From a virus: 64,000 bases of DNA. Location: positions 1-64,000 of the IMG/VR virus record IMGVR_UViG_3300030107_006096. One strand, 5' to 3'. Below, piece after piece: positions 2 through 50,415 of the stretch. A program made the position numbers and the translations under genes. How positions within the stretch are numbered: the stretch's first letter is position 1; each line of letters begins with the position of its first letter. The notes under the pieces are model-generated. The model had not been told where the DNA came from and did not search any database. It saw only the letters and a program-made list of their open reading frames with translations.

Positions 2-3000
2 AAATTAGGAGCATGTTGTTGCGAGTCATGTGAATGTGTTGATAATGCAGAATCAGCAGCCTGCACATCAAGCGACGAGTGTGGTAACTGTACTTGGTAT
101 CAAGAAAAATCATGTGATTTAATTTGTGATTACGAACCAGAGTGTCCGAATTGTCCTCAAGGAAACAACAGAATTTCATGGCATATTTTTGTTTCTACTG
201 GTGATGCATTTGGGGGCGAAAAAAGAGTATGGGGCGGATATGATGAAGGTGATACAGTACATGAGTTTGGTCCGGCAATAACGAGAGAAAATGATGGGTT
301 CTGGAATACCTATGGTTGGTATTCTTACTCTGGTGCTTGGTCACAGGTGCAAGCTCCGCAAGCGGAAAGGATGTTCTGGTTTAATAATCCATACACTGGT
401 CTTCATCGTCTCATTGCAAATATTGAAGGCCAAGAGGCTTGTCATAATCAAACATTAATGACCATCACCACAAATGATTGGGGAACAATAGGAATACAGG
501 ATGAGAATAATGGAACGCATTATGTCTCTGAAAGAGGATTGGTGTCCCATGCTATTTTAAGACCAGGTGAAACCATATGGGAAGAGGATAATAGCGATTG
601 GTTATTTTGGGATATCACTGGATTAGATTTACCATTTATTCTGCCATATATACCATCATTGAATGAAATGGCATTTGTAAACAATCAAATGAATCAAAGT
701 CCAGCATTAAATGTTGCGTTGAGTAATTCAGGATTCAGTGGCAAATATTGGACATCATCAACACCAAAAGGTGAAAATTATTCAACAACCGCGTACACTT
801 ATTACCTTGGAATTGGTGGATTAGTTGAGGATAGATTAGTCATTGAAAATAATACGGCGAATCCACCTGCAAATGAAAATAAGAGTAGAAAATTTGTTAG
901 AGTAATGGAAACCCAACAACTTCCATTTAATATTGAGGGCGATTTAGAGATTGGTCAGAGTTATGGATCAGGTTTAATATATGCGGGTGAGTTTACTCCC
1001 GGCTGCTCAAGAATATATGACGGGCAAGCAGGAGGGGAAGTTTGTAGCAATCCACTTCCAAGCGGTCCTTGCTGTAATTGTAAAAATTGTAGTGAGGTTT
1101 CAAACTCATATACTTGTCTCCATAAAGGAACTGATAGATATTGGCCTTGGGAATCAACTGATGTTGAACATGGGTATATGTGGAGAGGTGATAAATTTGA
1201 CACTGAAAATATGACCTCTTTTGGTGGCGCTGTTTGTGATGTGGATTGTGATACTGTAATTGAAAATAATATAAAATGGGAAGTTACAGCAGATGATGCA
1301 CTTGTCACATACTCTCCAGCAATCGCGTGTACCGACGCGACATTATACTTAGATAATTCTTCAAATCAAAATACATACTTTCAACATTTACTTCCAACTG
1401 GAACATGTTGTAAAGGAGATGGAACTTGTCCGGAATCAAAGAAGTGTGATTGTGATGGTTACAAATGGGAGCCGGTTACTGATTTAGGTGGCGACTGCTT
1501 GGCAACATGTGGTGAACCGCCCGTTGAACCTAATTGTTGTGATGATAATGATGACGGAACAAGTGACTATTGGTGTTTAGATTGTCCAGGCGGAAATTGT
1601 TCTGGATGTTTTTCCGGCACTTCTAATGGAGATTTAGACTTAAATTCATATTCTGGATGTAGATCAATATATTCTGCATCTGGTGTAAACGCGATCATTG
1701 CAAATGAAACCACTTTCGATACTACCAATCCCGGAGTTATGAAAAAGGACACTACAAATCCCGTTGATTTGAATCCGTATGAAGCAAGTGGTTGTCCCTG
1801 CACCGAGAAAGTAAGTCTTAGAGATTGCTTAGAAGATCAAGACAATCCAGACTGTGATGTGAAGTGTTGCGAATGGCACGGTCATACTGATGGCGACTAT
1901 GATTGGAATGGAAATAATATTTACAATGATAATTTCCCAGATCCAATCAACTATCCTTTCTCAGAAGTCCCCGGAAGAAATCCAACTAGCGGAAGAGATT
2001 ATGTCAAACCTACTGAAAGTCAATCAGATAAAGATCTTGGACTTTGCCCAACTTGGTCATTTGAAACTGACGGAACAATAAACACTTGGCCAGGAAGTAA
2101 TCTTCCTTACGGTGGCTGGAATGATTCGGTTAGTTGTGATGCGGATGGTTATTCAGACAATGAATACTCGGCGTTTGTTTCCGGAACTGCTTTTGATTCG
2201 TTCTCATATCGTTGCACTCCATACTCTGGAATACTGCAATCAGGAGACACTGACTGGTGGACCGTTGATGCAGATGGAGATGGAACTTTCGATAGTTGGG
2301 AAATTCCAGTAGGCAATAACGCAATTAATCCATCATATGCAAGAAAGTTTAAACTATCATATCAAACAAATAATGCTAAAGATCACGTTCAGGTTATTCA
2401 ACTTCCTTGGCCAAAGGGAGCGAAAGATGAAAATGAAGCATGGTCAAGAGTCAGATGTTATTTAAATTCTATCAGAACCGGAATTTGCAATAGTCAAGTT
2501 GATCCAATGGTAAATGGTGATTTACATAGTTGGTTGAATGGATTTATAATTGATGATCATAGCCAAGATAGTTCTGTAATTAAACAGTCAAATGATTCTG
2601 TTAAATTCTTAGGATATGCTCCTTCTGAACATTGGGTTCTTTATGATTCTGGTTGTGTTAACACTACTGAGTCTATTCCTAATAATGGAGACAAGGGGGA
2701 AGTTGAAGTAGACACAGGAACATACTCAGTGTGCGTTCCTTACAACTACACCGCTTGTCCATTGAGAATAGACGAAAAACAAATTAGATCACATCACTTT
2801 GCAACTCCTAGAGAAAATGAAATAAATGAAAGAATAAAAGAAGGTTATGGACCTGGTGGTCAAGGACCTCTTCCGGCGATTGTAATAAACTTTAATGACT
2901 GCGATAATTCAGGATCTTCTACAGATTGGTATGCTAGAGTTTCTGAATGCGGAGGAAGAAGTTGCCTCTTTGGTCCGGATAGCACCATCAGCATTGGTTC

Positions 3001-5479
3001 AAAGCCAAGTTCAGTTTGTGAAATATTAGAAGATGCATATGGCGGCCAGTTGCCGCCTGGCATTCAAAGTCCTTGTTCAGATGAAGCATCCTTTAGAAGA
3101 GACTCCTGTAAAACTGGATTAGATTCAGAAGGAAACATTAAAGGTTATTGTGCATGTGATAATAATCAAATTGGTTATCTCAGTGCAAAAGAGTGTTCAG
3201 AATATTCGACTGCTTCGTCGGTGACTTGTAATTGGATTTCTGACAATATTGATACTAGAATTGATGATTCATTGTGTGATTGTGATTGTGCTGATTGTCT
3301 CTATCCGAATCCATCATTGAATGCTGATGGAACCGGAGACGATCTAGACTATCTTGAGAATGAAAAATATTATCCTTCTTCTTGCTGCATGTGTATGGGA
3401 GAGAATGGATGGCCTGGAAATGTTGGCCAACCTTTAACTTTACCTTTCTCAAATCTTACTGGAAGTTATGGTTCATGGAACGATTTCTTTGAATCATCCA
3501 GCGAATGGTCTTCCTCTAATTATAAAGGACCAGACTTAGTTGGTTGGTTATGTGGATGGAACAGCATTGCTCACCAATTTGCAAAAGATCCACAGGTCTG
3601 GTTAACAGACCAAGGTTGCTGGGCAAAAACTTTTAGAAATTGTTTAGATGTCACCACATGTCCTGCTTTGTTTGGAGTTAATGGTTGGGATAATTCTGAG
3701 GATGTCGGATGTTACAGTCCAGGCACTCATGGAAACTTCTGCAACGGTGAGTTTATTACAAATGTAATGAAATTAAATACTCCTTTAGATTGTGAAGGTT
3801 GTCAGTTAGGATCCATATCAATGAGTGATGGAGAACCTGCAAGATCGATTGATAATACTCAAGGAAATGATTTAACAGGAAGAAATTTAAGAGGCGTTCC
3901 AAAGAGAAATGAAATATGTTCTTTATCTTCTGCGCCTCCGCCCGATGATGATGATTCGCGTGCCTATGGTGCTTGTTTCGCTCATGATCCAGAGCAGTTT
4001 ATTTGCTGTAGATCTAATAATCCGGGAGATTCGAGTTGTGATTATAACTACAATGTTTGCACCAATCCAAATATTAATTTCTTTGAATATAAAGAAGATG
4101 GTTCAGTACAGTCAATTAACTCTGGCAGATTTGAACAGGGTTGGGGATTTGTAGAGTATTCATGCCCAGATGGTTATGAACCGAGATCATATTTTGGAAG
4201 CGCCGGCGATACATCTTTCCCTCCGTTTGTAGATTTTTGGAATGATTACAGAAGTGCTAGTAGATGGGACTATAATAAAGATCCTCGAAGTCAAGAGTAT
4301 CTAAAACCAGACGGAACTTACCGGTCTGATTCATTGCCTGCTGTTTATCTTCCGTATGATATACAAAGAGTTTGTTTTGACGAGTGGACACCTTACGGTA
4401 CAGACATTCCTCAGTTCATGACAAGGGAAATGTGTGAATCCAAATACAATCCAAATCTGCAAGGTTTAGATGGTATTAATAGATCAGAAGAATTTAGACC
4501 AATCTTCTTTGAAGATGCCCAAATTAACGGTGCTTGTGCTAGACATGGTGTTGCAGATTTAGGAAATGAAGAAGGTGATTTCAGAACAAAATGTGAACCA
4601 ATATATGAGGGAATTGCATGTAGCACACCAATGGATTCAAATATTAATGATAATCCTGGTCTTGGTTGCGGTCAACTTTGGCATGGCGCTGGCCTTGACA
4701 AACCTAATATAATTAAAATACCAGCAAGAACAATCGAAGGTATCGATGATGATATGTGGCAACCTTACGGTAAACATGTTGGGGTGGTATCACACACTGA
4801 TTATCACTGGAGTAATAAAAGATGTGGCTTATTTTGTTGTCCTGAAGCCTACGAAGCGGCCGAATGTCCACCATATGCCAAAAATGTGCGCAAGACGCCC
4901 ACTATTGCAAGTTGGAATAGTATTATTCCCGGTCACCATCTTTTGAGTTGTTCCGGCAACCAAGAAGCCTGTCGAGATTGGGCAAATCAAGGCGGATATA
5001 TTACAAGTTGTTTACCAGCCTCTTTCGATGATCCATTTGGATTGGGTGAGGCCGTGATTGGACCAAACGGAGAATATATGGCTCAGTTTGGTTTCTTAGA
5101 TGGAAAATATAAATGGGTTGGTGAAGCAACAAATTACACCGGAGCATGTGACGGGTGGGGAAGAACATCAGATACTATGGATGATGATTTCCCAGAGGCT
5201 ACAGAGATTGATGAATGCCCCGCTGCGTCATGCGTACCCGATCAGGTCCCCTTCTCGGGGTTCTGGTCAGGTCTGACTGTATGTCCCAATTGGCATCAAG
5301 ATTATGGCGTTGACGAACAAGGTTGCCAGGCGCCATGTGAGTTTTCAAGTTGTATAGATCACTGCACCTCTGGACAATGTTGCTGTGATAGTGAGGAATG
5401 TTCCGGCCAAGGTCAAGGATTGGGTCAGTGTACTGATGGTTGTTGTGAATCAACTGGTGGTGGGGGACCAAACCCCTGA
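2..5479 (+). CDS. Large cysteine-rich virion/adhesin-like protein (5' truncated by window edge)
   Basis: The reading frame is open from base 2, with residues LGACCCESC in frame upstream of the first GTG at 347, so the gene starts before this window. At least 1825 residues are present. The product is very rich in Cys, Asp, Asn, Gly and Trp, with GxCC units at the visible N terminus and again near bases 1062 and 1402. Around bases 640-920 a segment with the pattern LPxxxELN...GFSGKYWTSS...KFVRVM resembles the DUF1566/Lcl C-terminal carbohydrate-binding fold. The C terminus ends in a Cys cluster and a Gly-Pro tail. It heads a run of similar genes that leads into the neck genes, where T4-like marine phages keep tail fibre and whisker genes. 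A host-binding structural protein is inferred; no enzyme motif is seen. Confidence 0.75.
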   Translation, partial: KLGACCCESCECVDNAESAACTSSDECGNCTWYQEKSCDLICDYEPECPNCPQGNNRISWHIFVSTGDAFGGEKRVWGGYDEGDTVHEFGPAITRENDGFWNTYGWYSYSGAWSQVQAPQAERMFWFNNPYTGLHRLIANIEGQEACHNQTLMTITTNDWGTIGIQDENNGTHYVSERGLVSHAILRPGETIWEEDNSDWLFWDITGLDLPFILPYIPSLNEMAFVNNQMNQSPALNVALSNSGFSGKYWTSSTPKGENYSTTAYTYYLGIGGLVEDRLVIENNTANPPANENKSRKFVRVMETQQLPFNIEGDLEIGQSYGSGLIYAGEFTPGCSRIYDGQAGGEVCSNPLPSGPCCNCKNCSEVSNSYTCLHKGTDRYWPWESTDVEHGYMWRGDKFDTENMTSFGGAVCDVDCDTVIENNIKWEVTADDALVTYSPAIACTDATLYLDNSSNQNTYFQHLLPTGTCCKGDGTCPESKKCDCDGYKWEPVTDLGGDCLATCGEPPVEPNCCDDNDDGTSDYWCLDCPGGNCSGCFSGTSNGDLDLNSYSGCRSIYSASGVNAIIANETTFDTTNPGVMKKDTTNPVDLNPYEASGCPCTEKVSLRDCLEDQDNPDCDVKCCEWHGHTDGDYDWNGNNIYNDNFPDPINYPFSEVPGRNPTSGRDYVKPTESQSDKDLGLCPTWSFETDGTINTWPGSNLPYGGWNDSVSCDADGYSDNEYSAFVSGTAFDSFSYRCTPYSGILQSGDTDWWTVDADGDGTFDSWEIPVGNNAINPSYARKFKLSYQTNNAKDHVQVIQLPWPKGAKDENEAWSRVRCYLNSIRTGICNSQVDPMVNGDLHSWLNGFIIDDHSQDSSVIKQSNDSVKFLGYAPSEHWVLYDSGCVNTTESIPNNGDKGEVEVDTGTYSVCVPYNYTACPLRIDEKQIRSHHFATPRENEINERIKEGYGPGGQGPLPAIVINFNDCDNSGSSTDWYARVSECGGRSCLFGPDSTISIGSKPSSVCEILEDAYGGQLPPGIQSPCSDEASFRRDSCKTGLDSEGNIKGYCACDNNQIGYLSAKECSEYSTASSVTCNWISDNIDTRIDDSLCDCDCADCLYPNPSLNADGTGDDLDYLENEKYYPSSCCMCMGENGWPGNVGQPLTLPFSNLTGSYGSWNDFFESSSEWSSSNYKGPDLVGWLCGWNSIAHQFAKDPQVWLTDQGCWAKTFRNCLDVTTCPALFGVNGWDNSEDVGCYSPGTHGNFCNGEFITNVMKLNTPLDCEGCQLGSISMSDGEPARSIDNTQGNDLTGRNLRGVPKRNEICSLSSAPPPDDDDSRAYGACFAHDPEQFICCRSNNPGDSSCDYNYNVCTNPNINFFEYKEDGSVQSINSGRFEQGWGFVEYSCPDGYEPRSYFGSAGDTSFPPFVDFWNDYRSASRWDYNKDPRSQEYLKPDGTYRSDSLPAVYLPYDIQRVCFDEWTPYGTDIPQFMTREMCESKYNPNLQGLDGINRSEEFRPIFFEDAQINGACARHGVADLGNEEGDFRTKCEPIYEGIACSTPMDSNINDNPGLGCGQLWHGAGLDKPNIIKIPARTIEGIDDDMWQPYGKHVGVVSHTDYHWSNKRCGLFCCPEAYEAAECPPYAKNVRKTPTIASWNSIIPGHHLLSCSGNQEACRDWANQGGYITSCLPASFDDPFGLGEAVIGPNGEYMAQFGFLDGKYKWVGEATNYTGACDGWGRTSDTMDDDFPEATEIDECPAASCVPDQVPFSGFWSGLTVCPNWHQDYGVDEQGCQAPCEFSSCIDHCTSGQCCCDSEECSGQGQGLGQCTDGCCESTGGGGPNP

Positions 5480-5501
5480 GCAGATCAAGGTAAAATAAAT
5501 A

Positions 5502-8500
5502 ATGAAATTCAGAAAAAGATATAACAATCAAGAAAATATTTTAAAAAGATCTACGAATCTTCAGAACAATAACGAAAATGGATGGAGTGTTTCCCAAGAA
5601 AATCCATTAGTGCCACCTTCGTATCATAAGCAAAATAATCAAGGGCCACAGAAAAGTTTTCCACCGCAAAATTCAAACACCTGTAGGACCTCTATTGAAA
5701 ATATAAATCCAAATCCTGGCGGAGAATTGAATTTTACACCACTTGAATGTAAAGCAGGAAGTAATCAAAGTAATCCTATTCTTGGAAGTTTTTGTTCAGA
5801 TTTTCACCAATGGAATGATCCTTTAATGATTGAGTTTTTTGGTGGTGAACAAAATGATATTATTTATATGGGAGGCAACTACGATGAAACTTGCGTCGAG
5901 GACGATGGCGATAGACTAGGAGCTTGTTGTCAAGATAATGGCGCTTGTTCGGCTTGGGATGAATCTACTCAAGGCCCATGTCCCGGACAGTTTCATCCTG
6001 GCGCTGATTGTGCTGATGGCCCATGTGAATATAATTTCGATGGTGGAAAGTGTTGGATATTCGGAAGTCATGTGGGTTATCTAGATGGAAAGAACTCTGA
6101 CGATCAATGGTCTGGTCAAAATGAATATGATTCGTATTATCATGGATATTATGGAGTTAAAGGTCCAAGAGATGCTTATCATTTAAATGAAGACAATGCT
6201 TTCAGAAACACTCTTGTAAATTATGAATCTCTATGGTATGGTTGGAAAGATCCCACCGTCGAAGGAGCAGAAGGAGCCGATGGCACTGAAGTTCCTTATA
6301 TGCCCCATAGAGAATATTGGGGAGCTAGAAAATTAATCGCAAACGGTCACGAATATCCTTGCTGGGATTCTGATATGGGAGCAACCAAAGAATTATGTGA
6401 AAGATACTTTAATTATACAAATGGAGACTTAACCGCTGTAGGTATTTGGGTCAGTGATGATGATTTTATTGAAATGCGAAAATCTCATTTAAGCAGGTTC
6501 ATGACGGAAAGTGAAGCAGAACAGCGAGCATTTTTGGATCTCACCGGTCATACAACTGCGGAGATTCCGAAATATCCTAATCAACCTCAAACTAAAGAAG
6601 AGATGCAAATATATAAGTTTCATGGTTTACCTCCCGGAAACAGATGTTTCGAATCGGGTCGATTTGCTCCAGGCGGCGAATCCACTATGTCTCCAACAGA
6701 TTTTGGCAATAAACTGCAAAAAATGCAAATGTTTCTTGAATCTGGAATTCCTGAAGATTTAGTAACAATACCACTATATCAGCAAGAGTATTATGGTGCT
6801 ACAAACTTAGAAGAGTTGTGGGATCATTGCTTGGACTCGATTCCCGATGATTTAGAGACAAGGGCTAGTAAAAATTTATGGATGTTTGGGATGAGGAATT
6901 CGGTGCTTCCGGAAGATTGGCCGACGACCGGAGGTCCGCCCGATCCCCACGGGGGGTTGCCTGATGAAGATGAGAATCCATATGAAGGATTTAATATACA
7001 ATCGTACTTATGGTGGAGAAATCTTACACCAGAATGTACTAGGTGGGCTAATTTTATAGGAAATAAAACGATTTACTCTGGAATAGATTTTAGAGATGTT
7101 ACAAATTATGCCACTAAAAGTTCTCATCCCGATGATTATTATGAGATTGGCCATCACACTTGGCATTCCCCAACGAAATTGTGTTGCGTGCAGGAAGACG
7201 GATGGGGCATTGGGTGTTTGCAATGTGCTAATGATGTTAGTCTCGGATGCCAAAATTGCGATGGTGCCAATCCTGACCCCTGCTGTGACTGGATAGGTGG
7301 TAACTGTTTCGAAGGCGACGGCGAAGACGGCGGTTCAATTTTCAAATGGAATGGGATGAAGACAATGGTAGCGAACACATTAACTACATTAGCCCATTGG
7401 GGTCATTTTCCTTGGAAGTGTAGGTTAGGTAGATGGTGCCCTGACTGCTCGCATGGACTGGAAGCCCTCGCTGCTCCTCAGTGGAGGGATCTCGCCGAAT
7501 CTTTTGTGCGGCATACTGGCACAGATAATGAGAATGATCTAGACTCTGTGCCTGCAAGGAGGGGATCATTGGTAGGAATGGGCATGGGATATAGTAATGA
7601 GTGGACTGCTTTTACTTCCAATTATGGCTATCCTGGCATTGGCAATGCCGTGGGTGCAGCGAGGAGAATGATTGGCGAATTGATGCAGCAGTATCATTGG
7701 GCAAGTGATATGTATCAATCACTTGCAGAAACCTTCGATCCGATGTATAGTAATGCGTGGAGAATATTTGAGAGGGAACTAGAAGAAAGAACTTGTAATT
7801 ATTTTCATAATTATGTTTCCCCGTTACATCCAGATAATATATGTCTTTCAAAATGTAACAAGGTGATCTGGGAACAGACAGATGAAGGCGATTGGGAGTC
7901 CGGTCAAGATGGCAAGGCATTAATAGGAAGTTTAATAACAAATTTTGCCGACTCGGTTTACTGGGATCGAGCCAGGAGGTGGTTGAATTTAGCCTCTGCT
8001 GCTTGTGCTGGTTTTGGCGGAATTGGAGGCGGATTTGGGTCGGACGAGGATGATGTGTGGACTACCCACGAACAGCTGGTCGGCAATATTGTGAATTGTA
8101 TCAAAAATGGCGGTGGTTGGTCTAAAGGCTCCTCATACGCGAACACATGTGCTTCGGCCCAACACCATATACAATATGTCATGTGCGGAGGCGAAAATGG
8201 GCTGGGGCCAGCATGGCAATTTGGTTGTGGTGGTGGTCTCGGTGGTGAGGACAATATGAGGTACATGATGCCATATTCTGGTGGAATAAAGGCCGGAAAC
8301 TTCTTTTCAGATTCCATTGAATGGGATGAAGTATGGGGATATCCATATGGAGGCAAACCCTTTACAAATCGAGAGCTTCCAAGATTTGCTGATGAAGATG
8401 GTGAGGGGACAAGTACATTGAGGCAAGGATCTTGTTACTTAGCCGATGATCGTTGTATTGCGACAACAGAATGGATGTGTAATAATCATCTAAAAAGAAC

Positions 8501-8624
8501 TGTAGGACTCGGGGACGGATGGAAAGCAATTGGCACAATCTATACCGAAAACGGCACTGTGTGGGATTATGATATCGGTGCCCGGCCGGACGCATGTAAT
8601 CCGGAGTGGTGGGCAGAACCGTGA
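5502..8624 (+). CDS. Cysteine-rich structural protein, tandem paralogue A
   Basis: The 1040-residue product starts at an ATG 22 bases after the previous stop. Its N-terminal 120 residues (FRKR, then NGWSVSQENPLVPP, NTCRTS, and LNFTPLECKAGSNQSNP) and its C-terminal 60 residues (GSCYLAD, TEWMCNNH, RTVGL) closely match the protein at 9747-12515. The middle is more diverged. One GACC unit lies near residue 143. There is no signal peptide or membrane segment. Aromatic, Gly and Cys content suggests an extracellular, disulfide-capable structural protein such as a fibre or baseplate decoration. I do not recognise a named family. Its role is inferred from location among adhesin-like genes upstream of gp13. 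Confidence 0.75.
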   Translation: MKFRKRYNNQENILKRSTNLQNNNENGWSVSQENPLVPPSYHKQNNQGPQKSFPPQNSNTCRTSIENINPNPGGELNFTPLECKAGSNQSNPILGSFCSDFHQWNDPLMIEFFGGEQNDIIYMGGNYDETCVEDDGDRLGACCQDNGACSAWDESTQGPCPGQFHPGADCADGPCEYNFDGGKCWIFGSHVGYLDGKNSDDQWSGQNEYDSYYHGYYGVKGPRDAYHLNEDNAFRNTLVNYESLWYGWKDPTVEGAEGADGTEVPYMPHREYWGARKLIANGHEYPCWDSDMGATKELCERYFNYTNGDLTAVGIWVSDDDFIEMRKSHLSRFMTESEAEQRAFLDLTGHTTAEIPKYPNQPQTKEEMQIYKFHGLPPGNRCFESGRFAPGGESTMSPTDFGNKLQKMQMFLESGIPEDLVTIPLYQQEYYGATNLEELWDHCLDSIPDDLETRASKNLWMFGMRNSVLPEDWPTTGGPPDPHGGLPDEDENPYEGFNIQSYLWWRNLTPECTRWANFIGNKTIYSGIDFRDVTNYATKSSHPDDYYEIGHHTWHSPTKLCCVQEDGWGIGCLQCANDVSLGCQNCDGANPDPCCDWIGGNCFEGDGEDGGSIFKWNGMKTMVANTLTTLAHWGHFPWKCRLGRWCPDCSHGLEALAAPQWRDLAESFVRHTGTDNENDLDSVPARRGSLVGMGMGYSNEWTAFTSNYGYPGIGNAVGAARRMIGELMQQYHWASDMYQSLAETFDPMYSNAWRIFERELEERTCNYFHNYVSPLHPDNICLSKCNKVIWEQTDEGDWESGQDGKALIGSLITNFADSVYWDRARRWLNLASAACAGFGGIGGGFGSDEDDVWTTHEQLVGNIVNCIKNGGGWSKGSSYANTCASAQHHIQYVMCGGENGLGPAWQFGCGGGLGGEDNMRYMMPYSGGIKAGNFFSDSIEWDEVWGYPYGGKPFTNRELPRFADEDGEGTSTLRQGSCYLADDRCIATTEWMCNNHLKRTVGLGDGWKAIGTIYTENGTVWDYDIGARPDACNPEWWAEP
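5574..5640 (+). repeat. 67-bp perfect direct repeat, copy 1
   Basis: These 67 bases inside paralogue A are identical to 9849-9915 inside paralogue B. They encode the NGWSVSQENPLVPPSYHKQNN segment. The flanking sequence is diverged, so this is a local island of identity. Confidence 0.95.
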
Positions 8625-8643
8625 TACTAGAAAGGACAAATAA

Positions 8644-9726
8644 ATGGCAAAACCAGTAAAACAATACAATCAAGATAATCCTTTAGGAAGCTGCTGTTAT
8701 TATGATGAAAATAAAAATAAAGCAGTTTGTGAAGACGGTATCACTAAAATAGAATGTCGAGAAAAAAATAAAAACTCTAAGAACAGATGGAACTCAAGAA
8801 AATGCAATAAACGAATTGCAATGAAAGATGATCTTTGCTGTAACACTTGTGGACAAGGAAGTAAGGATGCCGACGTTGTTAAAAAATTAAGTAAAATACA
8901 AAAAGGAAAAACTCAATTTAGATCAAGAGTTGATGAGGGATCAATCATCCTAAGCGAAAATCCCAATATAGATTGTAGAAATTCAGCAGAAGACAGATAT
9001 AGAAAAGAATTAATGTTAACGGCGATGAATTGTAGAGGAACAGAAATTTGTCAGCAAGAGGCAAGAGATGTTGCTAACTACATTAGAAATATTTCTAAAG
9101 AAAAATGTGAAGTTTGTGCCAATAGAAATAAAGAAAATTTAATTTCAGATCTCAAATCTTACTATAGTTGTCTTTGCGTTCTAAACCAAACGAAAGAACA
9201 ACAGTTGTTTGATTTGTTTAAAGAAAATGTTTGTCTATGCAATTCTTCTGAAGAGACATTTGAAGAAACCATATTATCAAAAGAACTAAATAAACTTATT
9301 TTGGAATGGAAAAGTTTAGACGACAAATGTAAATCTATTCTTCCAGAAGACGGGCCAACAAAATTAAAAGAAGAAATAACTGAGGGGTGTTGTTGTCATT
9401 ATGTGAAAAGGGGAAGATCGGAAAAAAATTATAATTCAGAACAATTAAGAAGATGTTTACCAATGACGAAAAGAGACTGCAAAAAGGTAATAAATTACCA
9501 AACTATCTGGAAGGATTGCAAGGACTCTGATTGTTCTAAAAATTGTGTGGCTGCAAACAAACCAGCAAAGTGTGGTTCATGTGATCCTACTTATAGTCCG
9601 ACTCCTGTTTCTACTCCAAGAAGATCAACTCCATCGGCTCCATCGACGCCATCAACTCCATCGACGCCATCGGCCCCTTCGGCGCCTTCGGCTCCTAGCA
9701 CTCCGAGCTACGGTGGTGGATACTAA
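8644..9726 (+). CDS. Cysteine-rich basic protein with Pro/Ser/Thr-rich tail
   Basis: The 360-residue protein lies between the two paralogues and starts at ATG 8644 behind an AAAGGA ribosome site. Residues 17-60 form a GSCC unit, and a second GCCC unit lies near residue 248. The middle is charged and Lys/Glu-rich, probably helical, with CxxC pairs. The last 45 residues are a low-complexity run of S/T/A-P triplets ending in YGGGY, a typical flexible linker or surface stalk. It is smaller and more charged than its neighbours, so it may be a connector or chaperone for the flanking proteins. The function is unknown. Confidence 0.7.
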   Translation: MAKPVKQYNQDNPLGSCCYYDENKNKAVCEDGITKIECREKNKNSKNRWNSRKCNKRIAMKDDLCCNTCGQGSKDADVVKKLSKIQKGKTQFRSRVDEGSIILSENPNIDCRNSAEDRYRKELMLTAMNCRGTEICQQEARDVANYIRNISKEKCEVCANRNKENLISDLKSYYSCLCVLNQTKEQQLFDLFKENVCLCNSSEETFEETILSKELNKLILEWKSLDDKCKSILPEDGPTKLKEEITEGCCCHYVKRGRSEKNYNSEQLRRCLPMTKRDCKKVINYQTIWKDCKDSDCSKNCVAANKPAKCGSCDPTYSPTPVSTPRRSTPSAPSTPSTPSTPSAPSAPSAPSTPSYGGGY

Positions 9727-9729
9727 ATA
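9722..9729 (+). promoter_or_regulatory. Possible variant late-promoter box ACTAAATA
   Basis: ACTAAATA differs from the NATAAATA late box at one base and lies 17 bases before the TTG start of paralogue B. The same octamer precedes the gene at 12580 by a similar distance. The transcription start would fall very close to the ribosome site, which weakens the call. Confidence 0.25.
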
Positions 9730-9733
9730 TAAG

Positions 9734-9740
9734 AAGGAGA
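9734..9740 (+). promoter_or_regulatory. Ribosome-binding site selecting a TTG start
   Basis: AAGGAGA lies 6 bases before TTG 9747. It supports TTG rather than a downstream ATG, because the residues right after TTG (EFRKRH) align with the ATG-started paralogue (KFRKRY). Confidence 0.75.
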
Positions 9741-9746
9741 TTCCTT

Positions 9747-12515
9747 TTGGAATTTAGAAAAAGACATAACAACCAAGAAAAAAAGGTTAGAAGATCTGAT
9801 TACAGCACCAAGAAAAGTGGTGGTGAAAACAGATTAAATATGTCATATGAAAATGGATGGAGTGTTTCCCAAGAAAATCCATTAGTGCCACCTTCGTATC
9901 ATAAGCAAAATAATCGAGGGGCCCAAAAAAGTTTTCCGCCTCAAGTTTCAAATACTTGCAGGACTTCTGTTGAAAATATAAATCCAAATCCTGGCGAACA
10001 ATTGAATTTTACGCCACTTGAATGTAAAGCAGGAAGCAATCAAAGTAATCCGATGTTGGGCAGTTTCTGCTCAGATTTTCATCAGTGGAATGATCCTTTA
10101 ATTATTAATATGACTCCTAATGAAACCACTGCAATTTACATGGGAGGCAACTACGATGAAACTTGCAGTGACAAAGATTTAGGTGGAGCTTGTTGTAGCA
10201 CAGAGAATAGTACATGCACAGATGTTGCTGACGCAGAAGAATGTGCAGATCTAGGAGGCGATTATCAGGGAAGCGGAACTTCATGTGACGCAGAGGGAAT
10301 TTGCGAATATGATTTTGAAGGCGGAAAGTGTTGGTTCTTTGGGGGACATGATGGTTATGTTGAACATGAAACATATTCCGATTTCTCTACTCTCACAGGA
10401 TTCTATCACGGATATCCTAGCTTGACAATCGCCGAGGACGGAAGACCAGTACATCTTAGTGGCGGCCCAGGAGGAACAGAAAATCCTTATGCGTTTGAGA
10501 AAACTATTGGTGAATTAAGTTGGTTTGATATTGGTTGCTGGGATTCTGACATGGGAGCAACCAAAGAATTATGCGAACAATACTTCAATTTCACAAATGC
10601 AAATCTGGAGAGTCAGGAAGTTGTAGGTCTTTGGCTCACTGATCAAGAATTTTATGATAAAAGAAAATCTACTTTGATGGCCGTGCATAATTTAGAAGAA
10701 CCTGAGGCAGAAAGAAGAGCGATGTTGGATCTTACTGGTTATCCTGCTCCTCCTTTGCCATATGGAGTCGATGCTAATAATATTGAATTTCATGGTCTAC
10801 CTCCCGGTAATAGATGTTTTGATGGAAATCCTAGAAATTCTCAGGGCGGTTCATTGGCACATGTTCAATCACAAGGAATGTACCGAATATGGGCCCAAAA
10901 ATCAGACATGGCAAGATTTTTCCTTTCCTCGGGAATTCCTGAAAATTTAGTAACAATACCACCTGCTTTACGACCTAATTATGGTGACGCAGCAAACATG
11001 AAGGAGTTGTGGGATTTATGTCAAGAAGAAGGAGGAGACAAAAACTTACCTCACTTTGGTTTAGTAGGTATAGATGGTTTTACTAATCGTTATAATGATC
11101 AGATTTTACCATACAACAAACCATACTGTAGTAAGTATATCGATTACCTAAGTAGACTTTCTTATTCAGGACAAGAATTTAGAGATTATGATTACCTTGA
11201 TGAAGGTTTGCCTAATTATCTGTATGGATCGGAAGGATCATATAGGTCTTTCAGGTTCACAACTTGTGAACGTGAAGGGGGCTTTTGGGTAAACTGTCAT
11301 GTATGTCCCGCAGTTAACTGCGATGATCCTCCTCCCGGCGTTCCGAGAGAGTGCTGCGAAAATGCACAGTATTTTAGTTTTCCTTGGAAGAAGTCTGGGG
11401 CCGAAATTGTTCATGCCCCCACCAATCCTATGATGGTGCCTTGGGCAATTACATCTCATGATGTCCATGAGTGCGATGGCGAGGATTGTGGTCATTATGG
11501 AACTTGTCATATGGATGTGACTAGAGATCATTTGAAATGGAACATGGATAATCGTGTAACGGACGAGGGCCTCCTTCAGAGGGGTCCCGGACTTTATGAG
11601 TCATATTATGCAGACATTTATAACTTAGGAAGCCCAGGCGGAGTTGATGCTTCACCATACAATCTAACTCAAATACGTTTATGGTATTTGTTCGCCGGTT
11701 TTGGATTTGCACATATAATAGATGGATTTCTTTTTGGTTCTGATCAGCCAGAGTATCAATATGATGATCAAACTTGGATAAATTTCTTAAATACTTATAT
11801 AGAACAGTCATGTGATGAATGGGCTCAATACTATGGACCAGTGCATCCCAATAATATCTGTGTTAAATTTTGCCCCTATGCGGCCGCAGGCTCTCCGCCA
11901 GGATCTTTTAGGAATCTTCGCTTTCTTGATCCTTGGAATATTTATGGAGGGAATAATGGTTGGTATAGCTGGTTCCCAGGCTGTGAGAATCTTACTTTCT
12001 TCGGTGGCGTATTTGGGGATGCCGGTTGGGGATGGTCTCCTGGCTTTAATACTGCGGAAGAAGTCGAGGAATGGTATGAGACAATTTACGATATGCATGA
12101 TTGCCTTCGTACAGGTGGTATATATGAAACAACATCATGTAATAATATGGGAGGCCTGGATTGTGGTATCGGAGGTTGGGGCTGGTGGAGCCACTATTGG
12201 GATTATGCTTGGGGTCTAGTGGCGCCATGGGAGTTGGATTCGACATCTAACGGATATGCTTACAAGCGATCAAAGACTGGATATTTTCCGTATGATGGAC
12301 AAGGAAACCTCGATGAAACTGGAACAGGAACAAGCACAAATCGAATGGGATCTTGTTACTTAGCTGATGGTCGTTGCATGATGACAACAGAATGGATGTG
12401 TAACAATCATATAGAAAGAACTGTAGGACTTGAAGAAAGAGGATGGGAACCTCTTTCTAATTATAGTCAAAATTCTGACAATATTCCAAGTGCTTGTCCG
12501 CCTTATATTCCATAA
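9747..12515 (+). CDS. Cysteine-rich structural protein, tandem paralogue B
   Basis: The 922-residue paralogue of the protein at 5502-8624 starts at TTG 9747, chosen because of the AAGGAGA site 6 bases upstream and because residues 2-7 align with the paralogue's N terminus. It shares the N-terminal block (NGWSVSQENPLVPP, LECKAGSNQSNP, DFHQWNDPL), the YMGGNYDETC and CWDSDMGATKELCE motifs, the FHGLPPGNRCF motif and the C-terminal GSCYLAD/TEWMCNNH block. One GGACC unit lies near residue 146. The centre is shorter and divergent, with Trp/Gly-rich stretches near residues 735-835. Common ends with variable centres suggest conserved attachment and assembly parts around a host-recognition core. That reading is inference. 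Confidence 0.75.
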   Translation: MEFRKRHNNQEKKVRRSDYSTKKSGGENRLNMSYENGWSVSQENPLVPPSYHKQNNRGAQKSFPPQVSNTCRTSVENINPNPGEQLNFTPLECKAGSNQSNPMLGSFCSDFHQWNDPLIINMTPNETTAIYMGGNYDETCSDKDLGGACCSTENSTCTDVADAEECADLGGDYQGSGTSCDAEGICEYDFEGGKCWFFGGHDGYVEHETYSDFSTLTGFYHGYPSLTIAEDGRPVHLSGGPGGTENPYAFEKTIGELSWFDIGCWDSDMGATKELCEQYFNFTNANLESQEVVGLWLTDQEFYDKRKSTLMAVHNLEEPEAERRAMLDLTGYPAPPLPYGVDANNIEFHGLPPGNRCFDGNPRNSQGGSLAHVQSQGMYRIWAQKSDMARFFLSSGIPENLVTIPPALRPNYGDAANMKELWDLCQEEGGDKNLPHFGLVGIDGFTNRYNDQILPYNKPYCSKYIDYLSRLSYSGQEFRDYDYLDEGLPNYLYGSEGSYRSFRFTTCEREGGFWVNCHVCPAVNCDDPPPGVPRECCENAQYFSFPWKKSGAEIVHAPTNPMMVPWAITSHDVHECDGEDCGHYGTCHMDVTRDHLKWNMDNRVTDEGLLQRGPGLYESYYADIYNLGSPGGVDASPYNLTQIRLWYLFAGFGFAHIIDGFLFGSDQPEYQYDDQTWINFLNTYIEQSCDEWAQYYGPVHPNNICVKFCPYAAAGSPPGSFRNLRFLDPWNIYGGNNGWYSWFPGCENLTFFGGVFGDAGWGWSPGFNTAEEVEEWYETIYDMHDCLRTGGIYETTSCNNMGGLDCGIGGWGWWSHYWDYAWGLVAPWELDSTSNGYAYKRSKTGYFPYDGQGNLDETGTGTSTNRMGSCYLADGRCMMTTEWMCNNHIERTVGLEERGWEPLSNYSQNSDNIPSACPPYIP
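9849..9915 (+). repeat. 67-bp perfect direct repeat, copy 2
   Basis: Identical to 5574-5640. Synonymous sites are unchanged here while adjacent codons differ, consistent with recent recombination or gene conversion between the paralogues. Confidence 0.95.
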
Positions 12516-12552
12516 AAAGTTTTGTGTTGTTAATTAAGTTTTAATTATATCA

Positions 12553-12560
12553 ACTAAATA
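12553..12560 (+). promoter_or_regulatory. Possible variant late-promoter box ACTAAATA
   Basis: The same octamer as at 9722, here 19 bases before ATG 12580 in the 64-base AT-rich gap after paralogue B. It is the only gap of this size in the cysteine-rich region, so a promoter here is reasonable but unproven. Confidence 0.3.
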
Positions 12561-12579
12561 TAGTAAAAGGAAATAATTT

Positions 12580-14934
12580 ATGCCTCTTGGATATACAGCT
12601 TACTTTGGAACCAGTGCGTTAGTGCCTTATACTGGGCCTACTGGTTCTATTGGAAAACAGCCAAGAGGAAAAGATGGAACTGGTGGTGCTACAGGCGGAA
12701 CAGGAAACACAGGACCGAGAGGAATAACAGGTCCCACCGGAACCACAATTATTGGAACTTATCTTCAAGATGATCCTTCAAAACCTGCATATGGTTATCA
12801 TGTAATTGAATTTGGAACTATTGGTCCGGTTCTCGGAGGAAGTCGAGTTGTAGCGACTGCCGCTCCAAGAGGTCTTACAGGTAAATATGGAGTTGTGGTT
12901 GGAACCACGGCAAATATTGGAAATACCGGAGGCGGTCAAACAGGATTTGTTAGAGGATTTACTTGGGGAACATATAATCCAGTAACAGGAATTTGCGGCG
13001 GAACATTAAGTTTTGCTAGAATATGTGCCAGTGGAGACTTTGTTCTTTACTCAGATTCTTCTCTTGGAATAGGAACCGGCGATTCGGATACGATGATAGG
13101 AATCAGTGGTCCAGCAGCGGCATATTATGGAACAGTGATCGGACAGTCTGTTGGCGAAATTGCATATCTTTCAGATAGAAAAAATGCAAAGGACGCTTAT
13201 GGTTTAACTGCAAGTAGTGGTGCTACTGCTCTGAGTGGTTTGACTTGGGGAACAATAACAAGTAAATTTGTAAATCATTCTGAAAGATTTCATATTCATG
13301 GAAGCCCCTTAAATGGAGTTCAGAAAGATCCATTCTACATTTCAACTACCACCGGAAATGTTCACCTACTATATCCGCCGTTTAGATTAGATGGCATTAC
13401 TATGGACTTCCACACTTCCAAACATCCAATTACATATAAGCCACAATGGAGTGGAGATGATATCACGAATACGGGAAACACAGCGGAATATGGAGAGTCA
13501 ATTAATGTAACTCTGATTGTAGATGGTGGTCCTAGAGGAATTGCTTTCGGTGATGGTTTCTTCTTCACAGAGGAACCAAGTTTTACTCATGGAAGAGATA
13601 TTCTTAATTGCTTGAGTTATGATAACGGAAAGAATTGGTTCGTAACTATGGCAGGAGCAGGCTACGGTGTGTCCGGACCAAAGGAGTCTGAAGCAGCCGT
13701 AGGATCTTGTTGTAATACAGAGTTACAAGACTGTCAAGATTTTGTAAGAAAATCAGAGTGTCCATCAAATTATAGTTGGTTAGAAAATGTATCTTGTGCT
13801 TCTAGGCCTCATTGTGTTGCAACAGAAGATATAGATACAGTTTGGGGTTCATGTTGTGTAAATAAAAACACAGAAACAGAATCTACAGAATCTTTATGCG
13901 TAGGTGGTCTTGGCCCATTAGATGATCCTAATTATATGACTCAAGAAAAGTGCGAAAGGTTTGGAGGACTGTTTAGAAGATTTGTTCCTTGCGATCCAGA
14001 GTTATATCCATGTGGAGATCCATGTGATGAAAACTTTGGCAAACTTGGAGCTTGTTGTGAATATGATGCAAATGGACAGAGTGTTGGTTGTTCTCGTTTG
14101 ACTGCGTTTGAGTGTGGATTGTTGCTTGAAGCACCAGCATTTACCGTATATAACGGAGATAATACTTTCTGCACAAACAGTTCATGTTGTCAACATGAAT
14201 TACAGGTTGGAGCTTGTTGTCTTGGAGAAAATTCTTGTTTAGATCAGGTGAAACCAATTGAATGTGTAAATACGTTTAATGGAACATACATGGGTCACAA
14301 TACTAGTTGTGAAACTGTTTCTTGTACATGTCCGCCTGAAAATGAAATAGGTCCAGGCTATTGTATAGCGTGTTATAGGGCCCTTGGAGGAATTGAAGAA
14401 TGTCACTGTTGTAATCACGTGCCGGTAGATGGTTGTATTCGTTATGAAGTATATGGTTATGATTATGCAGATACAGTATTAGGTTATAGTTGTAGTGATA
14501 TTGATCAAACAAATTGGGGACAAGATACTGAAGGTATATTTGATACCTCTCTACCACAGCACCCAGTCATTCAAGAAGAATATCAGGATCCAATTGTAAT
14601 AATGGGAACATGTTGTTATACTTTCTTCACAGAAGATGAAGATACAGGCGAACAAACCGTTCACTTAAATTGTGAAGGAAATGTTCCAAAGGGAGACGAT
14701 GGAAATGATGCCGGATCTTGTTACGCTCTTTGGGCTGGAGGAAATAATGGTGAATTTGATCCTCAAGCCAAAATAGACTGGTGGTGGAATGAAGAAACAT
14801 GTTCATGTGTCGATCCTTGTTATGGAACTGCTGGTGATGTAGGACTTCCCGGTTCAGATTGTTCATGTCGTCCTTATGATTTAGATACTGGATGTTTCAC
14901 GCCTGAAACTGGAAATTGTGAACCATTAGAGTAG
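12580..14934 (+). CDS. Collagen-like fibre protein with C-terminal GxCC repeats
   Basis: The 784-residue protein has three visible parts. Residues 17-58 are Gly-rich with G-x-y triplets (GPTGSIGK, GNTGPRGITGPTG), a short collagen-like stretch typical of trimeric phage fibres. Residues 60-365 are Gly/Thr/Ser-rich with beta-strand character and few cysteines. From about residue 370 there are at least four repeats beginning GSCC, GSCC, GACC and GACC, each with four to six further cysteines. The start ATG has an AAAGG site. A trimeric tail fibre or whisker carrying disulfide-stabilised tip modules fits the layout. I infer a host-contact role; no catalytic motif is visible. Confidence 0.75.
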   Translation: MPLGYTAYFGTSALVPYTGPTGSIGKQPRGKDGTGGATGGTGNTGPRGITGPTGTTIIGTYLQDDPSKPAYGYHVIEFGTIGPVLGGSRVVATAAPRGLTGKYGVVVGTTANIGNTGGGQTGFVRGFTWGTYNPVTGICGGTLSFARICASGDFVLYSDSSLGIGTGDSDTMIGISGPAAAYYGTVIGQSVGEIAYLSDRKNAKDAYGLTASSGATALSGLTWGTITSKFVNHSERFHIHGSPLNGVQKDPFYISTTTGNVHLLYPPFRLDGITMDFHTSKHPITYKPQWSGDDITNTGNTAEYGESINVTLIVDGGPRGIAFGDGFFFTEEPSFTHGRDILNCLSYDNGKNWFVTMAGAGYGVSGPKESEAAVGSCCNTELQDCQDFVRKSECPSNYSWLENVSCASRPHCVATEDIDTVWGSCCVNKNTETESTESLCVGGLGPLDDPNYMTQEKCERFGGLFRRFVPCDPELYPCGDPCDENFGKLGACCEYDANGQSVGCSRLTAFECGLLLEAPAFTVYNGDNTFCTNSSCCQHELQVGACCLGENSCLDQVKPIECVNTFNGTYMGHNTSCETVSCTCPPENEIGPGYCIACYRALGGIEECHCCNHVPVDGCIRYEVYGYDYADTVLGYSCSDIDQTNWGQDTEGIFDTSLPQHPVIQEEYQDPIVIMGTCCYTFFTEDEDTGEQTVHLNCEGNVPKGDDGNDAGSCYALWAGGNNGEFDPQAKIDWWWNEETCSCVDPCYGTAGDVGLPGSDCSCRPYDLDTGCFTPETGNCEPLE

Positions 14935-14945
14935 AGGAGTAATAT

Positions 14946-17009
14946 ATGCCTGTGAAAACAAATAAAACTAGAAGACGACCTTTTGGATCGTGCTGCATAT
15001 ATCCCTTAGAAAATTCTTGCACAACAGAATTAGATTTTTCATGTTTCAATGTTACATCATCAACATGTAATAATATAAAAGAAAAATTAGAAAGACAATA
15101 TGGTTATGGTTCTTATGGTGTAAACTTTACAGAAGGAAAGTGCTGTTGCAGTACTGAAGATTGTGGAGGATCAACAAAAGCTCCACCGAAAGATTTTATA
15201 GGTCTTAATTTCAATCAATGTATGACAAAACTTAACGGTCCAAATGCATTTGAATGCGGCGGACCTTGTAAAGATAATGATTGTCAGTATAGAAGAACTG
15301 GCTCTGGATATGATTGTGTTTTTGATTGTAACTGTTCAGCAGTCAGTTCAAACAATACAAATGACGACTCTGCTTTTGTTCAAAATGAATGTTGCTCATG
15401 TAATCCTGATTGCAACTCTAGTAAGTCTAAAAATAATTTCTGTTCTACAACAGAGTCTAATTGTGAAACCTCTTGTGAAAATTGTCCTCCTATTGCATTC
15501 GTTCCGGGAGGCGCTTGTTGTTGTCAGGACGCATCGTCTAATGGTTTTCCTTCATGCGATGATTGCATCTCATGTTCATATACCACAGAAATGCAATGCA
15601 GAGAAATACAAAATCATCCAAATGATTGCGAAAATCCGTTAGGACAACCGGGTTCATATCCATGTAATTGTACATTTTATCCTGAACAGACTTGTAATGA
15701 AACAGGAGTTACAGGATGTGTGGGATATAATGGCACAGATGAAGAAAAATATACCCCATTGATAGTGCCTGTTCTTGGAACGCGAGTCCCTCCAAAAATG
15801 ATTTCAGTATCAGGAATAACTCCAGTTCCAGTTTCAAGAGAACAATTATCAGGAATTTTATGCTCGAATGGAGATTGTCAAGTCATATACGATTTATATG
15901 AGTACATAATGGAAAATGGAACATTTCCTCCCCAGATAGATTCAAATGAAAACTATCAATACTTCTTACCTTATGTTCCTGAGATTTATTCAGAACTTGA
16001 AAGGACAATTCTTCCGACTAATCAGAATGGCAGAGAACATTTCTGTCAAATGGCAACAATTGGAGGTCATGGAATAAACAGAAAACTGACACCAGAAGAA
16101 ATGGCTAACAATCATTCATTGGTATCTGTGGATCATTTCAAAGCAATGTGGTCTGTTTATGAAGCAGAGAAAACAATAACACATTCTGACCCTGCTGGAA
16201 AATATGACTGGTTCCCCGGTTCAAGTGATGTGGATGGTCATTGTGGATGCTCGAATCCATATGTCGGAGATTCTATGCAATCTGCGGCAGTATATTTCCC
16301 GGTTACTGTTTCTCCTATATCTGGTGGAAATTGTATAAATATTCGTGTTCCCAAACATACTGAACATTTTGTTGCGAGAAAACTGGGAGGAATTGTTAGT
16401 GGCGAATCTTGTCCTATTGAGGACAGGGCGAGAGAATACAATAAATTTGGAAACAACAAAAAAATAGAAAATGAAATTGGTGGAGAACAAACAAGAATAG
16501 CAAAACAAAAAATGATGGGGCCTTCTGGTTTATGTTTATTAGAAGATGGAACTTTTGTTGATTGTGATAGATCCTACTGTGAAGAAGGACTTGGTGGAAC
16601 TTTTAGAGAGAAAAAAACAATTCCTAATGAATATATTAAACACACTTTTGGCAACAATGGAATAAATTTCCGAAGAAGAGATATCATCTCTTCTAGAAGA
16701 GAGGGGCCGCCTGGTGGATGGGAACCAGAGTTCATGGCGCATTGTGTTGTTTCTAATCAAACATATGATAGTTGTAAAAACTGTGTAACACAGCAAAGAA
16801 AAACATGTACTGATAAATGCATGGATTTGCCTAGCAAGGAACGTGCTGCATGTGGAAAATATTGTAGATGTGAGGAAGCAAAATATCTATTAGAATGTTG
16901 GAAAAGTAATGGAAAGCCGGCAGGGAAAAAGAATAAAATTTGTAGGAAAATCTCCTCGAACTGTGGACGCAATTATCCTACTCCACCAGAATGTAAGGCG
17001 GGAATATAA
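14946..17009 (+). CDS. Cysteine-rich virion-like protein
   Basis: The 687-residue protein starts at ATG 14946 behind AGAGGAG. The N-terminal 230 residues are packed with Cys pairs (FGSCC, CCCS, GGACCC). The central 220 residues, from about 250 to 470, are nearly free of cysteine and contain LIVPVLGTRVPPKM and a likely globular domain. The C terminus is Lys/Arg-rich with CxxC motifs. The next gene begins on the base after the stop. This alternation of disulfide-rich ends around a globular centre is seen in several neighbours. Function unknown; a structural or adhesin role is inferred from company and composition. Confidence 0.7.
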   Translation: MPVKTNKTRRRPFGSCCIYPLENSCTTELDFSCFNVTSSTCNNIKEKLERQYGYGSYGVNFTEGKCCCSTEDCGGSTKAPPKDFIGLNFNQCMTKLNGPNAFECGGPCKDNDCQYRRTGSGYDCVFDCNCSAVSSNNTNDDSAFVQNECCSCNPDCNSSKSKNNFCSTTESNCETSCENCPPIAFVPGGACCCQDASSNGFPSCDDCISCSYTTEMQCREIQNHPNDCENPLGQPGSYPCNCTFYPEQTCNETGVTGCVGYNGTDEEKYTPLIVPVLGTRVPPKMISVSGITPVPVSREQLSGILCSNGDCQVIYDLYEYIMENGTFPPQIDSNENYQYFLPYVPEIYSELERTILPTNQNGREHFCQMATIGGHGINRKLTPEEMANNHSLVSVDHFKAMWSVYEAEKTITHSDPAGKYDWFPGSSDVDGHCGCSNPYVGDSMQSAAVYFPVTVSPISGGNCINIRVPKHTEHFVARKLGGIVSGESCPIEDRAREYNKFGNNKKIENEIGGEQTRIAKQKMMGPSGLCLLEDGTFVDCDRSYCEEGLGGTFREKKTIPNEYIKHTFGNNGINFRRRDIISSRREGPPGGWEPEFMAHCVVSNQTYDSCKNCVTQQRKTCTDKCMDLPSKERAACGKYCRCEEAKYLLECWKSNGKPAGKKNKICRKISSNCGRNYPTPPECKAGI

Positions 17010-22600: not shown

Positions 22601-23011
22601 AACAATCCTCAAGGCGAATATGCAGCCGCAGGAGGAGAGGGAAATTATTACGACTATGGTTTTTCGACATATAATTTAAGATCATTAGATGTTTCCGATT
22701 GTCCTACACTACAAAGTTTACATTTACCGCATTCAAGTGACTCTTACAGTGATGTTGCGAAAAAATACTTAGAAGTAGTTAACATTAGTAATACTAAATT
22801 AGGACTGCAAGCATCATTAGATTCCTTTATGGATAATGAAGCATTTTCTCCTACAAATTATCCATCGGGTCATGTTTTAGAAGTAATAGCAAAAAATGTT
22901 AAAGATGTAAGTAATAATCCTTGTTATTTGTCTAATGGAAAGTATAATGAATTGATTTCTGCCTGGGCTTCTACAGGGAGAACTATATTGTTAACCATTG
23001 ATGTTTTATAA
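19646..23011 (+). CDS. Trypsin-like protease / Fn3-like / leucine-rich-repeat fusion protein
   Basis: The 1121-residue protein has three parts. Residues 90-410 look like a chymotrypsin-fold peptidase: His109 or His110 in VGVHHF after TAISDRW, Asp202 in RDMCLIRLKDPI, and Ser363 in GDSSSPIF, followed by ELVFMGCLTF as the expected strand. The Gly after the catalytic Ser is replaced by Ser. Residues 432-525 resemble a fibronectin type III domain (GYRIYKS, GETYHYYTTSVN). From about 690 to the end there are leucine-rich repeats with LDLSNNKL and LEKLYLNNNKI. No signal peptide is seen. It ends the cysteine-rich cluster and overlaps its upstream neighbour by one base. Protease activity is plausible from the triad but untested; it might process fibre proteins or act on host surface proteins. 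Confidence 0.7.
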   Translation: MAMYGQNDWGYDPSKHNLFMYGPADWNSELDIQKVIGWNPENNFMQNGYDFSCIQVRNRGHNTYHQMGKYGPLHPCGTQGNYCIEQTDDYPMTLPRLTAISDRWLVGVHHFTVPYVCREQMGLDPEDWTVEFLNPAGERITKRIDVVRLMATATDDCRQASTWGGAGNQCASQCPENVCNLPTGVIDAEHQSLAVKVNCQRDMCLIRLKDPILPGDGITPASIPDDTFIKKWFFDPSNDYERYPPHLQRTNRSMVAVDQHFRTGILHPVLNYYEGLQQTELCDGTVVPQGRYSERFDLGYSNYDYTPRSAGGSNQSGSSIDYRQLYTGDPDDAEQSEVHIGNDAHLSDYTLRDNMNSFYKGDSSSPIFYPLPNGELVFMGCLTFSNSFEILGASRGFVDALSVICGEHGDTLPKIVTENTDLSSKTQPSNIDGYRIYKSSISKDGPFYDITNQYNGADSYGLGSRTICENYSGVPCRRLGKDFVDLNVVPGETYHYYTTSVNVFDSSNSIYESNPSQVVSITVPSTKSGLVNQGNYRNIFDPDDGNSSSSDHIIYDDGIVPIENTYATYFDLIEGYRLGNNNLSIPFFGFVNPFESPLQPGVDHTNFPLYYRISGDDLNYDPIGIPMPTDPTSYQYIMGYSHETDSDITGIDYESNYKLALGSSNQNGLALINYLDSIETLWLTRNFPNPNNENLRSKLEPYYHSKIHFSNIKNLKKLVINPARYGNGRNDYGEDWSYSGSSSQGDSPETYLGYYSGVYLENDIDILGNLEVLIARDSNLDTSFQSMEYFNFYDLKSVKHLDLSNNKLYVVDYDIDSTHGIHNLEKLYLNNNKIGSNSTAWIEDSAYPDQNDSMPLFTQSFSNLNICDVSNNDIRTLNNTTDIDTEETFMENLNASSNPRLGIDGEFLMKSPNLKYLNLNSTNLQQGVRIKNASNLEFATIKGGQLRRLSVSSNTRPDTFSNLEHLILGSSNAEFTTLNLRYGNGNNPQGEYAAAGGEGNYYDYGFSTYNLRSLDVSDCPTLQSLHLPHSSDSYSDVAKKYLEVVNISNTKLGLQASLDSFMDNEAFSPTNYPSGHVLEVIAKNVKDVSNNPCYLSNGKYNELISAWASTGRTILLTIDVL

Positions 23012-23021
23012 TGGAGTTGAA

Positions 23022-46396: not shown

Positions 46397-46398
46397 AA

Positions 46399-50413: not shown

Positions 50414-50415
50414 TT

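Follow-up and report, generated by a model that had tools for sequence, protein, structure and literature searches.

A paralogous gene pair with conserved blocks and diverged centres in a T4-like phage host-recognition-type cluster, with signs that suggest recombination

Introduction

The island between VrlC and gp14 in pelagimyophages and cyanomyophages has been named the host recognition cluster (HRC), and PMC7029224 describes it as a hypervariable part of the structural region with tail fibres, in which unidentified structural proteins of the operon carry collagen repeats and carbohydrate-binding domains. A related kind of organization is found in adhesins. According to PMC6851490, the T-even gp38 adhesins are built from glycine-rich motifs and hypervariable segments, and PMC3909814 describes T7-like tail fibres of pelagiphages in metaviromic islands in which a conserved N-terminus is joined to a variable recognition part. 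A literature search on phage tail-fibre paralogue conversion and on cysteine-rich cyanophage structural proteins returned only PMC7029224 as apparently on point.

Here we describe two large genes, A and B, from the first 64,000 bases of an 84,976-base virus record (bases 1-64000, the window). The locus resembles the HRC (PMC7029224) in that an island of large proteins adjoins a gp14-type neck gene and has a collagen-like neighbour; it differs in that the VrlC border lies beyond the record and in that A and B are without a curated family. The likeness to gp38 (PMC6851490) is one of layout only, with a conserved attachment part at the N-terminus and variable segments interspersed with short conserved motifs. 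Whereas gp38 forms the tip of the long tail fibre, A and B contain cysteines, occur as a pair and resemble gp38 in layout alone. They are also several times the size of gp38. Recombination between the motifs of gp38 was reportedly described by Tetart and colleagues in 1998. The pelagiphage tail fibres share with A and B a conserved N-terminus and a variable part, but the variable part is C-terminal there (PMC3909814) and central in A and B.

Because the identity between A and B is uneven, the synonymous sites of their parts are discordant, both genes precede the neck genes and relatives have partly similar neighbouring proteins in the same slot, we favour, with roughly even confidence, the reading that A and B are a duplicated, virion-associated pair of adhesin type that a T4-like myovirus carries in its host-recognition cluster, with a shared framework and a varying centre, and that both genes are mosaic.

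Results

Genomic setting

A cluster of host-recognition type, made up of large and mostly cysteine-rich proteins, occupies positions 2..23495 on the + strand and precedes the neck-type genes. There are about 23 kb of + strand large genes ahead of gp13, with A second and B fourth. Cysteine made up at least 3.6% of the residues in eight of the nine large genes taken, and the first large gene (2-5479) is cut by the record start, with a frame that is open to base 2 and codes for at least 1825 aa. A connector gene of PHROG type Ad2 (23545) follows the cluster and one of type Hc2 lies at 24356; we take these to be T4 gp13 and T4 gp14, respectively. From 23545 onwards, T4-type homologues of the head-tail adaptor, head closure protein, tail sheath stabiliser and small and large terminase were found, and further ones of the sheath, tube, portal, scaffolding protein and Gp23 capsid. 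Annotated phage records with a match to the capsid protein numbered 2499, none of them reaching 60% identity; among the matches listed, the best (53%) were phages that infect Methylophilales and most of the others were cyanophages. The cluster thus borders a gp14-type neck gene within the structural region, as an HRC does. Its content is also variable, since it differs among 12 gp13-bearing relatives and neither A nor B was found in 50 related records, many of them short fragments.

Two other members of the cluster carry recognizable repeats. The gene at 12580-14934, near A and B, has a collagen-like stretch, and the gene at 19646-23011 (1121 aa) has a leucine-rich repeat stretch that matched PF13855 at 3.7e-6, at the curated cut-off.

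The position of the cluster bears on whether A and B recognize a host at all. They may instead be structural proteins of the baseplate periphery, collar or whisker that have no receptor specificity, with copies that diverged because they occupy differing positions. In T4 the corresponding slot is taken up by genes for baseplate and collar, as this explanation would have it, and no binding domain was found in A or B. On the other side, the region is the hypervariable host-recognition island of marine T4-like phages (PMC7029224), and the neighbours at 12580-14934 and 19646-23011 bear the collagen-like and leucine-rich stretches. We regard a purely structural role as possible but doubtful.

Organization and uneven identity of A and B

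Both open reading frames were present where the earlier note had placed them. Gene A (5502..8624, + strand, 1040 aa) starts with ATG, and gene B (9747..12515, + strand, 922 aa) starts with a TTG that pairs with the ATG of A in the alignment. The earlier note had called the two tandem paralogues. Their paralogy held, with a blastp match between A 1-785 and B 1-709 of 35% identity over 819 columns (E 3.6e-114), but they are not directly adjacent, as a 360-aa cysteine-rich gene (8644..9726, + strand) intervenes. This gene is unrelated to either: at E<=0.01 blastp matched it with neither A nor B, and its best match to a single GxCC cysteine module was 5.8e-5, with a whole-protein E of 0.52. Starting with the gene that precedes A and ending with B, the intergenic distances are 19-22 bases, and 64 bases follow B; A, B and the gene between them are therefore probably co-transcribed. 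Scans for promoters and terminators were uninformative, departing from shuffled sequence by about 1.3 standard deviations at most.

When A and B were aligned with MAFFT, 868 residues were paired at 40.7% identity. The identity was far from uniform. Windows of 30 residues had identities between 7% and 97%, with a variance of 0.047 that was about threefold the maximum of 0.016 obtained in 2000 column permutations, which contradicts uniform divergence across the alignment. A conserved N-terminal block spans aa 1-131 in A (5502..5894, + strand) and aa 1-140 in B (9747..10166, + strand); its strongest conservation covers approximately A 25-131. Two conserved islands follow. Island 1 (CWDSDMGATKELCE in A) lies at aa 286-350 of A (6357..6551) and about aa 263-332 of B (10533..10742), and island 2 lies at aa 372-444 of A (6615..6833) and about aa 347-425 of B (10785..11021), all on the + strand. 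Island 2 holds the internal motif FHGLPPGNRCF, named in the earlier note, which is identical in the two proteins (A 373-383, B 348-358). The diverged centre comprises aa 445-963 of A (6834..8390, + strand) and about aa 426-856 of B (11022..12314, + strand), and a conserved C-terminal block follows at 8394..8540 in A and 12315..12452 in B (both + strand, 71% in the alignment). The similarity is also visible in the DNA, with ungapped matches of 258 nt at 90% (5574-5831 and 9849-10106), 65 nt at 89% (6359-6423 and 10535-10599) and 83 nt at 89% (8427-8509 and 12348-12430).

Comparison with shuffled sequences gave z values of 69.5 for the N-terminal block, 16.4 for A 132-285, 62.3 for A 286-445, 7.8 for A 446-600, 11.0 for A 600-790 and 31.0 for the C-terminal block, and A 785-960 against B 709-855 was at chance level (z=-0.6). 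The conserved ends that the earlier note had described were thus borne out, with a C-terminal block of about 45-50 residues. Its divergent centres stood in part: the centre is strongly diverged and A 785-960 has reached chance, but the rest is still homologous (z=8 to 11). Judged from these alignments, A and B are paralogues whose centre is mostly homologous though very diverged.

A variable part within an adhesin-like protein might also be produced by a diversity-generating retroelement that hypermutates the centre. We rejected this candidate as very improbable. The variation covers more than a kilobase and includes length changes, and a PF00078 reverse transcriptase was absent from the 84,976-base record, which is a fragment, so that the gene may lie outside it; in the control the profile matched 3 of 14 genomes.

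Between the N-terminal block and island 1, B has a GxCC cysteine module (aa 147-188, 10185..10310, + strand) with a profile i-Evalue of 1.8e-8. The module in A (aa 140-180, 5919..6041, + strand) is weak, with a single-domain i-Evalue of 2.3e-4 and a whole-protein score under the threshold with the same profile, which was made from 96 modules with A and B left out. By eye the C-terminal block plausibly looked like a divergent GxCC module; this was rejected, as the module profile had no match there at a domain E<=1.

Synonymous sites in the blocks and in the centre

Codon differences were counted at residues that are identical in A and B, with Met and Trp excluded. The differing codons were 18/89 in the N-terminal block (A 17-131), 11/37 in island 1, 10/35 in island 2 and 8/30 in the C-terminal block (A 960-1010), or 47/191 when the four blocks were pooled, against a random-codon expectation of about 55-56%. 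In A 445-960 plus 217-285 the proportion was near random (58/102, p=6e-8 versus the blocks; 52/92 in A 445-960 alone), in a centre that is largely poorly aligned and where chance-matched residues give random codons. Outside both groups were A 1-16 (2/9), 132-216 (12/30), 351-371 (1/1) and 1011-1040 (4/5), and the non-block total with the last three included was 75/138. The Nei-Gojobori dS was 0.46 for the N-terminal block, 0.89 for each island and 0.64 for the C-terminal block. Elsewhere it was at least 1.8 or undefined, apart from 1.0 in A 351-371, with only 14 positions. Because poor alignment by itself yields random codons in the centre, a stricter recount was done at positions on which two aligners agreed and where the neighbourhood was at least 30% identical. 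The effect was smaller in this subset, with 46/188 (24%) in the blocks versus 27/60 (45%) in the centre (p=0.003) and 16/31 in A 445-960 alone (p=0.004).

The pattern of protein identity might have arisen by a single old duplication and ordinary divergence, in which protein selection kept the ends and islands while the centre was relaxed or positively selected, all without recombination. One duplication predicts a centre that is still recognizably homologous, and this was seen up to A 785. It also predicts about equal synonymous age throughout, and the codons of A and B look otherwise. The extent to which conserved stretches have fewer synonymous changes in general was gauged with the best-matching other genes of the window (24000-64000) in seven related records, with 7 to 17 genes per record that were at least 40% identical. 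For A and B the differing codons in the high, middle and low classes of local identity were 21/90, 40/132 and 63/116. The proportions in the highest and lowest classes were 0.23/0.54 for A and B and 0.37/0.44, 0.40/0.50, 0.50/0.44, 0.44/0.51, 0.51/0.54, 0.53/0.61 and 0.51/0.55 in the controls. The difference between the high and low classes was significant in none of the seven control comparisons, where the low classes hold few sites (22 to 192) and most of the controls apart from L007 and L008 are near saturation throughout, so that a trend would hardly be visible even if present. The odds ratio of 0.26 for A and B was significantly more extreme than (under) that of the control in six of the seven; the exception was L008 (p=0.07). 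A significant though mild drop in synonymous change at conserved stretches, as expected without recombination, was seen between the high and middle classes in the closest record, L007 (979/2627 versus 390/838, 0.37 to 0.47, p=2e-6), and in L008 (439/1085 versus 189/401, 0.40 to 0.47, p=0.02). We consider divergence without recombination an unlikely account, though one that deserves some weight.

Selection at the protein level may therefore be insufficient as the sole cause of the uneven identity, and the DNA of the blocks probably goes back to a more recent common ancestor than that of the centres. Since the ends and centres probably differ in age, these counts suggest recombination behind the discordance between block and centre. 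The exchange by recombination that the earlier note had raised thus gained support from blocks that are unsaturated at synonymous sites next to a near-random centre, beyond what the control genes show, and was tempered by the mildly similar behaviour of the closest records. Replacement of the centre and conversion of the blocks both yield the discordance, and the data fit either.

The same slot in related records

To compare the slot in relatives, 80 loci were kept from at least 594 portal-related viral stretches. Extra stretches were available for 14 records; that of G001 was excluded because it only repeats DNA already in the set, and 13 were used. A gp13 gene was present in the tested stretches of 12 of these 13 records, G017 being the one without. 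Neighbouring large frames shared sequence at E<=1e-8 in seven of the 12 (G004, G008, G011, G013, G020, G022 and G035). In all seven the shared part lay within about the first half; it began at or near the N-terminus in G004, G011, G013 and G035 and covered about residues 250-660 in G008, G020 and G022. The identity was 24-33% in all pairs but one, with the low-complexity filter off, so that collagen-like repeats may add to these matches. G019 and G023 had a smaller pair of another kind. No pair at E<=1e-8 was found in G025, with only about 5.6 kb upstream, in G027 or in G031, where a weaker one reached 1.8e-7. Unlike in A and B, no shared C-terminal block was seen in the pairs of the seven relatives.

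In G035 (locus L091) the adjacent large genes at 4305-7616 (1104 residues) and 7624-16626 (3001 residues) have 505 aligned N-terminal residues in common at 78% identity (blastp), and beyond these one continues with a proline-glycine repeat and the other with unrelated sequence. The dS in 60-residue windows was about 0.3-1.3 across the shared N-terminal part. The pair thus resembles A and B in being adjacent large proteins with a common N-terminal part, but it is collagen-like; within the window its family is represented by gene 12580-14934, not by A or B. This is a similar principle in a different protein family.

Relatives of A and B and the proposed function

A tblastn search of 50,697 phage records with B, with part of the N-terminal block and with A gave no relative, with chance-level matches only (E 2 or more) in one search. 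Six successive scans of viral contigs, based on A, B, the N-terminal, island or C-terminal blocks or an N-terminal pattern, gave 0, 69, 0, 18, 27 and 1 pattern matches, none of them confirmed, and none of the 51 pattern matches in bacterial and archaeal genomes was confirmed either; such scans need short exact peptide patterns, and distant relatives may escape them. The gene at 19646-23011 likewise had no match in a scan. A profile of A and B found its own record, which served as the positive control, and none of 50 of the 80 portal-related records, many of which are short fragments. In Pfam, A and B were without a family at E<=0.1, and among PHROG families there was one weak unnamed match for A (E 0.019), so that neither protein matched a known family of tail fibres or adhesins. 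No match was found among the sequences of solved structures, and an AlphaFold2 model from the two-row alignment was discarded at a mean pLDDT of 25. The A/B family is thus without relatives in the collections searched, and the arrangement itself is not a new kind of system. The pattern is real, with recombination probable, and its location is one at which patterns of this kind are to be expected.

According to the preferred reading of an adhesin-type pair, the N- and C-terminal blocks and the two islands would together make up a shared framework, probably responsible for the docking and folding of each protein, and the centre would be the varying part, which probably touches the cell surface and carries specificity, so that two genes would give two specificities. 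Either recombination by way of the conserved blocks would have replaced the centres, or the blocks would have been homogenised between the copies. The earlier note had likewise pictured assembly ends around a recognition core. The position in the cluster and the partly similar neighbouring proteins in relatives fit this picture, but no curated domain, solved-structure match, relative or usable model pointed to binding or assembly, which also counts against our reading. So does the outcome of the searches, in which no allele from another phage, and hence no swap, was seen. If it is true, the host-recognition island of T4-like viruses of this type evolves by block-wise recombination inside paired genes, beyond gene gain and loss, and synonymous discordance between blocks is a sign, readable from sequence alone, that might separate recognition cores from framework in proteins without known domains. 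A more elaborate version, which we find rather improbable, is a two-copy diversification system in which repeated conversion keeps the end and island blocks of two intact adhesin genes alike and centres from a co-infecting phage fit either copy. A single virion would then have two specificities, and exchangeable cores would be available as a reservoir.

Other features of the window

An N-terminal motif resembling M-S-I-Q-F-R-T-R was present in 11 of 50 cysteine-rich frames versus 1 of 693 others of at least 200 residues, with a pattern that was picked after examples had been seen and with A among the 11. The count covered 99 sequences including the window and took frames from both strands, whether genes or not; locus-start frames were dropped and duplicates were removed by their last 60 residues. 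The tag was located at 17010-17040 and in L034, L042, L046, L065, L079, L080, L085, L094 and L098. A starts with MKFRKRY and B with MEFRKRH, the latter uncounted because TTG reads L. The motif may act as a docking tag common to these proteins, or most of the frames may simply be a single fast-evolving orthologue whose start is conserved, and its presence in A and B may be due to chance.

Further downstream, a 479-aa protein (46393-47832) matched the catalytic domain of glutamine synthetase (8.5e-15); its N-terminus also gave a thioredoxin-like match (6.2e-5), which fell slightly short of the curated cut-off. Genes for an epimerase family protein and a GDP-mannose 4,6-dehydratase (50410-52301) lie between those for the gp45-type clamp and the gp44-type clamp-loader, and the gene at 59547-60350 matched glycosyltransferase family 17 (4.4e-17).
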